Below, one piece after another: positions 1,719 to 5,794 of a stretch of DNA of 43,382 nucleotides (position 1 is its first letter; each line of letters begins with the position of its first letter). This DNA is from an uncultured Arenicella sp. Lineage in GTDB: Bacteria; Pseudomonadota; Gammaproteobacteria; Arenicellales; Arenicellaceae. The translations under genes and the position numbers were made by a program. The notes under the pieces are model-generated. The model worked only from the letters and a program-made list of their open reading frames with translations. It was not told where the DNA came from and did no database searches. The DNA is taken from contig CALJJR010000106.1 in assembly GCA_937973905.1 (NCBI GenBank), positions 1 to 43,382 on the forward strand. The letters are read 5' to 3'.

Positions 1719-2900
1719 ATGAAACGCTGGTTCAGAAACAATTCTATTTATCGCGTTGCTGCACTGAATTTTGGGCTATTTATCGTACCCGCAACCGTGT
1801 TGGCAGTGCATCTCTTATTTTCGATAAATCATGAGCTTTCGGTGATGCTCGACAACCCCTCAAATTACGACTTTCGGGCCGAAGTTGTGGAAGACACCGG
1901 TTTCGTGCGTGAGCTGATCACAAGACTACGAAGCGCCTCGCCCGCCTATGCACAACAAGATGAATTCGTTGAGTACCTAAGAGATCTGCGACTAATTGTT
2001 ATCTTGATCTGGGTCGGGCTCTTTCTAGGCGGGCTGTGGTTGGTTGCAGACCTATCCGGGAGGTTGCAAAAACAACTCTCAACCATGTCTAAGTCGATTC
2101 AGGGCTTGGTGGAAAATGATTTGAGCCAAACGATAAAAATTGCAGGTAACAGCGACGTTCTAAAAGTCGGCGAGCAGTTGGAACAACTTCGACTGCGGCT
2201 CGACCGCAACGAGCAACAGCAAGTTCAGTTTTTACAACATGTGTCGCACGAGATTAAAACCCCACTGGCATCTATCCGTGAGGGCATCAAATTGATGAAT
2301 GATGAGTTACTGGGCTCAATTAACGCTGATCAAGCAGAAGTTACTCAGATCATTCTTAAAAATAGCCGCGAGCTGCAATCCTCCATTGAGAGCCTTCTCG
2401 ACTACAATCAAGCACTAGTAGCGCCGCGCGAGAGCGAGAGAGAACGAGTAGACCTTTGCGACCTCATCGAACACGCAATTGCTCGACAGACCCTTGGAAT
2501 AAAAGCCAAGGGATTGGAGATTAATAAGCACTTAATTCCTGCAGAGGTCTGCGTCAATCAAGCTCAGATCCTGACAGTACTGGATAATTTGTTATCAAAT
2601 GCGATACGATTCTCACCTTCGGGGGGGCGGATCCATCTAGAACTGCACCATGATAACCAGATGTATCATTTGCTGGTCCAGGATGAAGGCCCAGGAATTC
2701 CAGATGATCAGAGAAATATGGTATTTAGCGCTTTTTTTGTGGGCACATCAAAACCTAAGAACTCATTGAAGGGCACGGGGCTCGGTCTCTCCATTGCGCG
2801 CGAGTACGTGGAATTGCACCGCGGCGCCATAGAAGCCCTTGACCCAGATGACGGCCCTCTGAGCGGGGCATTGTTTCGCGTTTGCTTAGTAGATAACTGA
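1719..2900 (+). CDS. GlrK/QseE-like sensor histidine kinase
   Basis: Inner-membrane sensor kinase of about 393 residues. It has a transmembrane helix near residues 12-34, a periplasmic loop of about 55 residues, a second helix near 91-110, a HAMP-like linker, and a HisKA domain with phospho-accepting His177 in HVSHEIKTPLASIREG. The HATPase domain has N-box NLLSNAIRF, G1 DEGPGIP and G2 GTGLGLSIA. The HisKA sequence is closest to the GlrK/QseE type that pairs with a sigma-54-type regulator, and exactly such a gene follows 2 bases after the stop. I chose the ATG at 1719, preceded by CAGGT, over the in-frame ATG at 1629 because the kinase proper begins there and the intergenic region is then left free for divergent promoters. 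The signal is unknown; envelope stress is the family precedent. Confidence 0.88.
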   Translation: MKRWFRNNSIYRVAALNFGLFIVPATVLAVHLLFSINHELSVMLDNPSNYDFRAEVVEDTGFVRELITRLRSASPAYAQQDEFVEYLRDLRLIVILIWVGLFLGGLWLVADLSGRLQKQLSTMSKSIQGLVENDLSQTIKIAGNSDVLKVGEQLEQLRLRLDRNEQQQVQFLQHVSHEIKTPLASIREGIKLMNDELLGSINADQAEVTQIILKNSRELQSSIESLLDYNQALVAPRESERERVDLCDLIEHAIARQTLGIKAKGLEINKHLIPAEVCVNQAQILTVLDNLLSNAIRFSPSGGRIHLELHHDNQMYHLLVQDEGPGIPDDQRNMVFSAFFVGTSKPKNSLKGTGLGLSIAREYVELHRGAIEALDPDDGPLSGALFRVCLVDN

Positions 2901-2902
2901 AT

Positions 2903-4303
2903 ATGGATACGAAAGTGGCACAAGATGGACTTGAAGAGTTTCGCCTGACTGGACGTGAGCAAGCACGTCTCTTGTTGGTGGATGATAACCCCGACCTTCT
3001 GCGATTAATTGCCATCAGGCTTCGACCATTTAATTTTGAGCTTAGAACAGCTGAGAGTGCAGAGGATGCGTTAACTATTTTGGCAGTCTGGGCTGCCGAC
3101 CTAGTCATCACCGATCTCCGCCTGCCAGGCATGTCAGGAATGGAGTTGTTTAGTCAGATCCAACAAGACAGCCCGCTATTGCCAGTCATCATACTCACCG
3201 CTCACGGCACCATTCAAGACGCCGTGCAAGCAACGCAAGCGGGTGTCGTCAGTTACCTCACAAAACCGTTCGATGGTGATGCGCTGGTCGATCGAATCCA
3301 ATCAGCTCTGTTTACCAGTGGGTTTACCGAGGCGCAAACCGTCTCATCCGATGAGGTTTATTACGACCGGCGATGGCGCGGACGCATTGTCAGTACAAGT
3401 CCAGCGATGAAAGCGCTGCTACTGCAAGTAGAAAAACTGGCGCAAACCAATGTGCTTGTTATGTTCGAAGGAGAGGCCGGTACCGGTAAAGGAGAACTCG
3501 CACGTGCACTGCATCGACGCAGTGATCGAAGTGATAGTCCATTTGTTGAAGTAAGCTGCAGTGCCTACGCCGACGAAGTGCTATTTGCTGAAGTGTTCGG
3601 CGTTTCAGCAGACGCTCAGCAAGGCATCAAAGCACAAATTGGTAAATTGCGAGAGGCAAATGGGGGCACTTTGTTGTTTAGAGACTTTGATGAAGCCTCG
3701 ATAGATTTCTTACGCAGTGCCCTAGGCGCGGCAATTGAAGGCCGTGCCAGCACCATCAATAACAATGAAACGTATCCGATTAATGTTCGCATTGTGGCAA
3801 GTTCCGCTTCCATGGACCCTGCGGATAGGCCAAGTCAAGAATTGTGGGACATGGGCTATAAGCTAGGGCTGACGCCGCTACAAGTGCCACCGCTACGCGA
3901 ACGTCGCGAGGACATCCCCTTAATTACAAATCAGTACCTACAAGATTTCAGAGATGATCTGGAAACGCAGTTTTCGAGCGCTGCGCTACGTCTCCTTGTG
4001 GCTGCAGAATGGCCGGGAAATATTCGCCAATTAATCGCGGTTGTTCGCCAATGCGTGCGTTTAACAAGCACCAGAATTATTCCCGAAGCTCTGGTCGCCA
4101 GCCGTATTCAAAGCCCCTTGTTTCAGATTGCCCCCTTATCATCAGCACAACGAGAATTTGAACGCGGGTACTTGATCGATGTGCTTAAAGCGACCCGCGG
4201 CAACGTAACTCGCGCTGCAGCGATTGCCAAACGTAATCGAACTGAGTTTCATCGCTTGCTCAAAAAACATCAAATCGAAGCCAAAACTTTTCGCAATAGC
4301 TAA
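2903..4303 (+). CDS. GlrR/QseF-like response regulator with degenerate sigma-54 activator domain
   Basis: A 466-residue regulator: receiver (about residues 20-135; acidic pair D27/D28, phospho-site D71, K121), AAA+ central domain (about 165-395) and a Fis-type helix-turn-helix (about 425-460, GNVTRAAAIAKRNRTEF). Walker A is intact (GEAGTGK, 190-196). The GAFTGA sigma-54 contact loop is replaced by DAQQGI around 237-242. Walker B reads TLLFRDF where the family has TLFLDEI, so the magnesium-binding Asp is Arg. The arginine-finger segment reads LWDMGYKL, so both expected arginines are missing. The later WPGNIRQL sensor II motif is kept. The receiver and DNA-binding domains look functional, so it may act as a phosphorylation-controlled repressor or sigma-70 regulator. 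It forms an operon with the upstream kinase, 2 bases apart. Confidence 0.87.
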   Translation: MDTKVAQDGLEEFRLTGREQARLLLVDDNPDLLRLIAIRLRPFNFELRTAESAEDALTILAVWAADLVITDLRLPGMSGMELFSQIQQDSPLLPVIILTAHGTIQDAVQATQAGVVSYLTKPFDGDALVDRIQSALFTSGFTEAQTVSSDEVYYDRRWRGRIVSTSPAMKALLLQVEKLAQTNVLVMFEGEAGTGKGELARALHRRSDRSDSPFVEVSCSAYADEVLFAEVFGVSADAQQGIKAQIGKLREANGGTLLFRDFDEASIDFLRSALGAAIEGRASTINNNETYPINVRIVASSASMDPADRPSQELWDMGYKLGLTPLQVPPLRERREDIPLITNQYLQDFRDDLETQFSSAALRLLVAAEWPGNIRQLIAVVRQCVRLTSTRIIPEALVASRIQSPLFQIAPLSSAQREFERGYLIDVLKATRGNVTRAAAIAKRNRTEFHRLLKKHQIEAKTFRNS

Positions 4304-4365: not shown

Positions 4366-4380
4366 CGCCGCGCGATGAAG

Positions 4381-4540
4381 GCTTTGCGGGAGAGAGAGTT
4401 TGTTAACACGAACTCCGCCGAAGGCGCAACGTGCTCGTAACCGCTCAGGCAAACGGACCACAAAGCTGACACATCGCCTCTGGAGAGTGGTGCTACGCAC
4501 CCACCGAAGGGGTAATCTTTCAGGTCACCGGACAGAGGAG
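4381..4540 (+). ncRNA. Tandem glycine riboswitch (two aptamers)
   Basis: Two glycine aptamers in tandem. Aptamer 1 is closed by GCTTTG (4381-4386) pairing with CAAAGC (4461-4466) and holds GGGAGAG, CGCCGAAGGCGCAA and CTCAGGCAAACGGACCA. Aptamer 2 is closed by CCTCTG (4477-4482) pairing with CAGAGG (4533-4538) and holds GGAGAG, CACCGAAGGGGTAA and TTTCAGGTCACCGGACAG. These conserved boxes are diagnostic of the glycine riboswitch. It lies in the 5' leader of gcvT-gcvP, where the known role is to switch on glycine breakdown when glycine is abundant. Identification is by motif recognition only; I did not run a covariance model. Confidence 0.95.
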
Positions 4541-4678: not shown

Positions 4679-5794
4679 ATGTCTGAACTCGCCAAAACCC
4701 CTTTATATAAACAGCACCAAGCACTGGATGCACGGATTGTCGACTTCGGCGGTTGGGCGCTACCGGTCAACTATGGATCGCAAGTTGATGAACATCACGC
4801 CGTAAGAACAAGCGCTGGGATGTTTGACGTTTCGCATATGACTGTTTCAGACGTCACCGGGCGAGACGTTATTCCTTTTCTTCGATTTCTGCTCTCAAAC
4901 GATATCGGCAAAGCGAGCAAGACACCGGGAAAAGCAATTTACAGTTGCTTGCTCAATGAATCTGGAGGCGTGATTGATGACCTAATCGTCTATCGCATGA
5001 CCGACCAGCACTGCCGGCTAATCACTAACGCCGCCACAAACATTAAGGACATGGCATGGATCAAACAACAATCCAGCGGCTTTGAAGTAGACTTTCAGGA
5101 AAAACCAGACTTAGCAATACTGGCGGTACAAGGCCCAAGCGCAATTAGCCATGCCTCTTCTTTGGCGCCCTTGCTTAGCCAGAAGGATCAAGAGCTCATC
5201 GCCTCACTGCAACGATTCCAGGGCGCGGCTCTAACCGACATGCCAGACAGTTTTGTTGGCAGAACCGGCTACACCGGCGAAGATGGGCTCGAATTCGTAC
5301 TCCCAGCGGAATCGGCCAAGCAATTATGGGAAGCCTTATTAGCAAAAGGCGTTCAACCATGCGGATTAGGGGCTCGAGACACTCTCCGTCTGGAAGCCGG
5401 TATGTCTTTGTATGGGAATGATTTGGATGAATCTCATACTCCCGCTGAATCCGGCATTGCGTGGGCCGTGGCCTTATCTGACCAACGTGATTTCATCGGC
5501 AAGCAAGCGGTGCTATCGGCACCAAGGTTTCAAATGATTGGCCTTGTATTGCTTGATCGTGGCGTTCTTCGCGGGCACCAAGCGGTCTTTATTGACGATA
5601 ATGAAATCGGCGAAATCACCAGTGGAACCTTTTCGCCAACCCTCGAGAAGTCGATTGCTTTGGCACGTGTCTCAGCAGATTCGAACATTCAGCAAGGTGA
5701 TCAATTGCAGATCAAAATCCGCGCTAAAACCTTGAATGCGCAAGCAGTCAGCTACCCATTCGTAAAAAACGGCAAAGCTTCATTTAACCTATAA
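4679..5794 (+). CDS. gcvT: Glycine cleavage system T protein (aminomethyltransferase)
   Basis: Transfers the methylene group from aminomethyl-lipoyl H protein to tetrahydrofolate, releasing ammonia. The 371 residues match the usual length (E. coli 364). Hallmarks are LYKQHQALDARIVDFGGWALPV near the start, GMFDVSHM, the folate-site segment GRTGYTGEDGLEF, and RLEAGMSLYGNDLDE. The ATG follows AGGTGA at 7 bases, and that ribosome binding site is inside the hairpin of the glycine riboswitch leader. gcvP follows directly after the stop. gcvH, usually between gcvT and gcvP, is absent from the window. Confidence 0.97.
   Translation: MSELAKTPLYKQHQALDARIVDFGGWALPVNYGSQVDEHHAVRTSAGMFDVSHMTVSDVTGRDVIPFLRFLLSNDIGKASKTPGKAIYSCLLNESGGVIDDLIVYRMTDQHCRLITNAATNIKDMAWIKQQSSGFEVDFQEKPDLAILAVQGPSAISHASSLAPLLSQKDQELIASLQRFQGAALTDMPDSFVGRTGYTGEDGLEFVLPAESAKQLWEALLAKGVQPCGLGARDTLRLEAGMSLYGNDLDESHTPAESGIAWAVALSDQRDFIGKQAVLSAPRFQMIGLVLLDRGVLRGHQAVFIDDNEIGEITSGTFSPTLEKSIALARVSADSNIQQGDQLQIKIRAKTLNAQAVSYPFVKNGKASFNL

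Follow-up and report, generated by a model that had tools for sequence, protein, structure and literature searches.

What does a response regulator built like a sigma-54 activator do once its AAA+ domain has lost the residues of an ATPase? The question is raised by a gene pair in a 43,382-nucleotide stretch of DNA from an uncultured Arenicella sp. (the window in what follows), in which the start codon of a GlrR-like regulator lies 2 bases past the stop of a histidine kinase gene. The pair and the parts of the regulator that matter here are:

1719..2900, + strand: cognate histidine kinase; the reading frame opens at 1629, the likely ATG is at 1719, and the kinase motifs are intact
2903..4303, + strand: GlrR-like response regulator with degenerate AAA+ domain; open reading frame, ATG start, 466 aa
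2972..3301, + strand: receiver domain, aa 24-133 (Pfam and clade alignment)
3113..3115, + strand: Asp71, presumed phospho-acceptor (alignment)
3470..3490, + strand: Walker A / P-loop GEAGTGK, aa 190-196, kept in the clade in 11/11
3554..3556, + strand: position of the switch asparagine, aa 218, here Ser (alignment)
3596..3643, + strand: L1 loop without GAFTGA, aa 232-247, one residue shorter (alignment)
3668..3688, + strand: TLLFRDF at aa 256-262, in the place of Walker B; the Asp is gone, and where the Glu stood there is an invariant Asp
3839..3871, + strand: former arginine-finger segment ELWDMGYKLGL, aa 313-323 (alignment)
4136..4294, + strand: Fis-type helix-turn-helix (HTH) region, aa 412-464, with the recognition stretch RNRTEFHRLLKKH (Pfam and alignment)

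An earlier reading made from the sequence alone had described the Walker A motif as intact, Walker B as TLLFRDF, the GAFTGA loop as absent and both arginine fingers as missing. The first two motifs are present in the window protein as stated, the L1 loop reads FGVSADAQQGIKAQIG, lacks GAFTGA and is one residue short, and in the finger segment the first Arg has become Leu and the second Lys. One loss had escaped that reading, namely the switch asparagine, whose position is occupied by Ser. Of the features that characterize sigma-54 enhancer-binding proteins, the P-loop is found in the window protein; the loop, Walker B and both fingers are not. The roles of the glutamate switch and of the arginine fingers are described in excerpts of PMC7175178.

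Pfam domains follow one another as Response_reg (24-133), Sigma54_activat (162-302), AAA_lid_14 (332-402) and HTH_8 (417-441). The top NCBIfam model is GlrR (PRK15115) with 365 bits, which lies under its cut-off of 763, so that the protein does not qualify as a GlrR equivalog; the single-sequence structure prediction has a mean pLDDT of 34. Ten orthologues with 45-55% identity came out of a search that covered 61 related genomes first and 109 genomes of the order afterwards. Nine are in the 17 other genomes of the same genus, and the tenth is encoded on a contig of 3,150 bases in a genome from another family (G034); the tree places it within the genus, and its contig is probably mis-binned. 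The window protein and these orthologues are referred to as the clade; two members (L018, L019) are cut by contig ends, and domain identities were taken from the nine full-length ones. In a sample of the class, 90 of 369 genomes held a match at E <= 1e-110, four of these in the genus. Outside it, this threshold gave 89 matches in 86 genomes, of which 86 were taken and G276, G241 and G227 left out; together with ten proteins of the same order and E. coli GlrR they make up the 97 GlrR-type proteins used for comparison. Some of the aligned proteins carry N-terminal extensions, which leave the motifs untouched.

In a tree of 50 rows the clade forms one branch with support 100/100 and a stem of 1.47 changes per column. 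Its 11 rows lie among 48 GlrR-type rows, which are split (100/98, starred) from an outgroup of two NtrC/NtrX rows, both long branches. A further starred node (96/90) surrounds the clade, whose sister group has a support of only 81/76. Judged from this topology, the regulator is a relative of GlrR (QseF) by descent, and most simply the degenerate state arose once and is old.

The losses are a property of the whole clade. All ten orthologues lack the loop, the Walker B Asp and Glu, the switch Asn and the first finger, which answers the question, put forward with the sequence-only reading, of whether the losses are common to a clade of GlrR homologues; a sequencing or assembly error is rejected on the same ground. 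Counted over all 11 members, the GAFTGA loop is found in none, in contrast to 96 of the 97 GlrR-type proteins outside, and the switch Asn in none against 94 of 97. None has an F-T core in L1. Walker B has lost both its Asp and its catalytic Glu (0/11 each), with an Asp in the place of the Glu in 11/11; this replacement, Asp261, directly follows the position of the former Walker B Asp in every member. The first arginine finger is found in 0/11, and the second Arg in 2/11 (L011, L019), so the statement that both are missing holds for the window protein and not for every relative. The sensor II Arg is present in seven of the nine clade members that extend to it.

Outside the clade these residues are nearly universal (n = 97: Walker B Asp 97, Glu 96, first finger 97, second finger 96). 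The 96 loops read GAFTGA (68), GSFTGA (21), GAFSGA (3), GAFTDA (2), GAFTSA (1) and NAFTGA (1), and the other ten genomes of the order with a match at E <= 1e-90 all have loops of the GAFTGA type. The sole loop-less protein among the 97 is L077 (G309:C19:52287-53615), in which L1 is deleted and Walker B and the fingers are intact. As a side observation, four GlrR proteins from another family of the order (L050-L053, genomes G077-G080) combine GAFTGA or GSFTGA with a P-loop of the form SPSGTGK, which begins with Ser instead of Gly.

Against these losses stands what the clade has kept. The receiver residues D27, D28, D71, T99 and K121 are invariant in the nine full-length members, and from general knowledge of receiver domains we take Asp71 to be the phospho-acceptor. 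The pattern motifs of the clade kinases are likewise largely in place (H-box 11/11, N-box 9/11, G1 8/11, G2 11/11). We put a probability of roughly 0.7 on the reading that the protein is a DNA-binding regulator, controlled by phosphorylation and independent of sigma-54, with a P-loop that binds nucleotide and does not hydrolyse it. The kinase, as its intact motifs suggest, would still phosphorylate Asp71, and the Fis-type HTH would still bind DNA. Given the residues lost, the AAA+ domain would no longer contact sigma-54 or run an ATPase cycle; because the P-loop is kept in all members, it most likely binds nucleotide without hydrolysis and supports an assembly on DNA that depends on phosphorylation. 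The sensor II count would weaken nucleotide binding for some members. The regulator would then act on sigma-70 promoters, as activator or repressor, in the manner of Rhodobacter capsulatus NtrC. The earlier proposal that sigma-54 activation was lost while the phospho-acceptor and DNA-binding parts were kept is thus well supported as far as the alignments go.

The most serious alternative is decay: with the sigma-54 target and QseG lost, selection would have become weak, the AAA+ domain would have eroded by drift, and the system would be on its way out. The genomic setting lends this some weight. Downstream of the pair the window continues with:

4377..4470, + strand: glycine riboswitch aptamer ahead of gcvT, a neighbour outside the system (searched for in the window only)
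4679..5794, + strand: gcvT, syntenic neighbour

The genes gcvT and gcvP follow the regulator wherever the contig continues, and a PurU-like gene (formyl-transferase/ACT) separates dcd from the kinase in every clade locus except the window (11 of 12); at the G034 locus dcd would lie past the contig end. In five genomes of the genus (G003, G007, G010, G011, G013) the synteny is continuous and the pair is absent: gcvT follows about 0.6-0.8 kb from the PurU-like gene (in G013 from dcd), which leaves no room for it. The pair is therefore dispensable in the genus. Its presence on a GcvT-GcvP-Dcd tree requires 6 changes, and two of them depend on G009 and G016, where the contig ends at the locus (in G005 the contig end cuts the kinase). 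The 6 changes on the tree fit gain or loss alike; that the pair always occupies the same genomic position speaks for repeated loss.

Decay could also account for the divergence of the AAA+ domain, with a mean identity down to 0.40. The mean identities of receiver, AAA+ and HTH are 0.64, 0.40 and 0.75 in the clade versus 0.56, 0.67 and 0.61 outside, figures that set one genus against a whole class, for which reason medians from receiver-matched pairs are more trustworthy. These medians are 0.64 (receiver), 0.40 (AAA+), 0.48 (lid) and 0.75 (HTH) for the 36 pairs of the nine clade members, and 0.60, 0.68, 0.59 and 0.64 for 2746 pairs of 96 intact GlrR-type proteins, the deletion case L077 being left out; the intact pairs were chosen with a receiver identity in the clade's range, and the comparison, being matched on the receiver, cannot show a tightening of the receiver itself. 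At similar receiver divergence, the AAA+ domain went from the most to the least conserved part of the protein, and the HTH is more conserved than in intact proteins; this conservation of the HTH speaks against a system in decay. So do the open frames of all nine full-length members, window included, and the invariance of the P-loop and the new Asp261 in 11/11; G190, G193, G195, K196 and Asp261 belong to the 15 of 141 AAA+ positions that are invariant in the clade. Third codon positions vary most in the receiver, AAA+ domain, lid and HTH in each of the four pairs tested, which indicates that even the AAA+ part is still under some selection. Only such codon-position contrasts were used, since dS is saturated for most pairs and domains and makes dN/dS unusable. 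On balance we regard decay as unlikely.

A P-loop kept without the parts for hydrolysis could also mean that the AAA+ domain senses another nucleotide, such as c-di-GMP, with the receiver as a second input. FleQ and VpsR bind c-di-GMP, and chains of both are among the sequence relatives with solved structures. We consider this reading doubtful, appreciably more so than decay.

Compared with known systems, the clade regulator most resembles the GAFTGA-less regulators of sigma-70 promoters. Loss of GAFTGA as such is already known in single bEBP lineages, namely TyrR, HupR, some alphaproteobacterial NtrC proteins and VpsR. According to excerpts of PMC10274813 and PMC3162934, R. capsulatus NtrC lacks GAFTGA, acts at sigma-70 promoters and needs phosphorylation and ATP binding, not ATP hydrolysis. 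The available text of PMC3162934 also lists TyrR, DhaR and HupR as GAFTGA-less regulators of sigma-70 promoters and describes E. coli TyrR as sigma-70 dependent and Vibrio cholerae VpsR as GAFTGA-defective. R. capsulatus NtrC and HupR belong to other lineages and share the missing GAFTGA with the clade, the likeness being drawn from description; VpsR, too, is likened by description and by its GAFTGA defect alone. Caulobacter NtrC is likewise GAFTGA-less and works at sigma-70 promoters; in the accessible part of PMC10274813 its Walker A Lys and Walker B Asp are said to be present and both required, whereas the Walker B Asp of the clade is gone. In our alignment E. coli TyrR also has GAFTGA deleted, and unlike the clade it keeps the Walker B LDE and both arginine fingers. 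Brucella NtrX (PDB 5m7n) has the same receiver-AAA+-HTH order and a short L1 without GAFTGA, and differs in keeping LDE and FREDLFHR. The NtrX-like protein of the window's own genome (L002, G000:C1:1582-2931) also has no GAFTGA, with INE for LDE and FSEDLYYR for FREDLYYR, and the NtrX-like proteins L196 and L200 of G014 and G008 look much like it.

With E. coli GlrR/QseF the clade shares the domain order, the GlrR side of the tree, a near-identical recognition helix and an adjacent QseE-like kinase; it differs in having no GAFTGA, Walker B, switch Asn or first arginine finger. A further difference is a Tyr-to-His change fixed in the recognition stretch of the clade, so that its operator may by now differ from that of E. 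coli. In the open-licence literature, no ATPase-dead or QseG-less GlrR was found among the titles and beginnings of abstracts of the matches listed. The clade has lost nearly all of its ATPase residues, yet its P-loop and receiver site are still there and its DNA-binding end is strongly conserved. It thus offers a natural experiment on the use of the AAA+ fold in a protein where this fold has ceased to be a motor. The annotation of these proteins as sigma-54 regulators is probably wrong.

On the output side, four of six intact relatives of the order have a sigma-54 -24/-12 match within 500 bases of the operon, that of L158 lying on the other strand. None of the 12 clade loci has one, three of them being without downstream DNA; the matches are raw pattern counts, and the expectation of about 0.015 per locus is an estimate at equal base frequencies. 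In one intact relative (G021, L159:10150-10420) three consecutive YGTCGC-N6-GCGACR sites separate glrR from a TGGCAC-N5-TTGC promoter; in another (G026, L161:5959-6300) two such sites and a TGGCAC-N5-TTGC promoter are placed directly downstream of glrR. By eye, the reading frame behind the G026 promoter appears to encode an exported, EF-hand-like protein.

The gene rpoN was found in 16 of the 18 genomes of the genus, and a lineage-wide loss of sigma-54 is rejected as the general cause. One of the two others, G014, is 99% complete; rpoN was not detected in it, and an open kinase-regulator pair is present. Its NtrC (L195, G014:C27) has the loop GAFAGA, in which the central Thr is gone, in comparison to G[AS]FTGA in the three rpoN-bearing genomes looked at. 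In G008 (78% complete) rpoN was not detected either, and its NtrC has the loop GAFSGA and an LDD Walker B. Among the genomes, G014 offers the strongest hint at a regulator that does not depend on sigma-54, with an assembly gap as a possible cause of the missing rpoN. It also bears on the idea that the protein joins another bEBP, for example NtrC, in mixed rings as a subunit without catalytic activity and there modulates sigma-54 transcription: the window's own genome does contain rpoN and an NtrC-like protein with intact motifs, whereas in G014 the regulator occurs together with an altered NtrC loop and rpoN was not detected, and the arginine-finger residues are lost in the clade, so that we judge such rings very improbable. 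The idea that loop and Walker B have merely moved and still provide weak sigma-54 activity, for which the displaced Asp261 might be quoted, is hardly credible in view of the missing F-T core in all 11 loops, the alteration of both finger positions in 9/11 and the absence of a sigma-54 promoter match next door.

The sequence-only reading had gone one step further and suggested that the pathway was rewired to sigma-70 control or repression. By the precedents given above this is plausible; a target promoter or operator of the regulator was not found with the patterns searched, and counts of E. coli-type sites do not set carriers apart from non-carriers. TGTC-N10-GACA occurred 377 times versus 293 for the reversed control in the 11 genomes with the kinase gene, and 201 versus 180 times in the other seven. 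For YGTCGC-N6-GCGACR the numbers were 11 versus 11 in ten carriers, 2 versus 3 in five non-carriers and 44 versus 46 in eight intact relatives, which is whole-genome background even there; the clearest excess was seen in G041 (16 versus 6). Upstream of the 12 clade kinases TGT-N12-ACA matched once, with a shuffle mean of 1.5.

The input side is remodelled too, a point absent from the earlier reading. E. coli QseG is an indispensable lipoprotein that attaches to QseE at its periplasmic domain of 140 residues (PMC6075780), and in a survey qseG is consistently flanked by qseE and qseF (PMC12691602). The genes of kinase and regulator are adjacent in the genus, and the order qseE-qseG-qseF does not occur; the window has no qseG before the regulator. 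The QseG family (PF13942) was detected in none of the 18 genus genomes, with a positive E. coli control. Intact relatives of the order do have a reading frame in the place of QseG. Of the two kinds of such frames tested against PF13942, one scored 23.6 bits (cut-off 27) and the other gave no match, so a diverged QseG might exist elsewhere in the genus. The predicted periplasmic loop is about 55 aa in the window kinase and spans 55-79 aa in eight of 12 clade kinases (seven from genus genomes and that of the G034 contig, the ones called cleanly by a simple hydropathy scan) versus 146-156 aa in four intact relatives. The scan gave no clean two-transmembrane call for the remaining four clade kinases, for one relative or for E. 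coli GlrK. Compared with E. coli GlrK/QseE and QseG, no QseG is found and the sensor of the kinase is about half as long. From these two changes the stimulus, too, has probably changed along with the rebuilt sensory side.

Taken at both ends, this would mean that GlrK-QseG-GlrR was rebuilt within one genus, with sensor docking and QseG dropped at the input and the AAA+ domain turned into a non-hydrolysing nucleotide-binding module that gates phosphorylation-dependent assembly at sigma-70 promoters. We offer this wider account tentatively and consider it somewhat less likely than not; if it is true, these proteins would stand in a natural series that leads from an ATP-driven sigma-54 activator to an ATP-gated ordinary transcription factor. 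A last observation concerns the kinase genes themselves. Raw pattern matches to a sigma-70-like element, TTG-N18-22-TAnnnT followed by ATG or GTG, are present upstream of the clade kinases in 11 of 12 loci (L147-L156 and L163, the window being the exception) and coincide with the kinase start in eight; the closeness of this element to the start codon suggests a leaderless kinase transcript.
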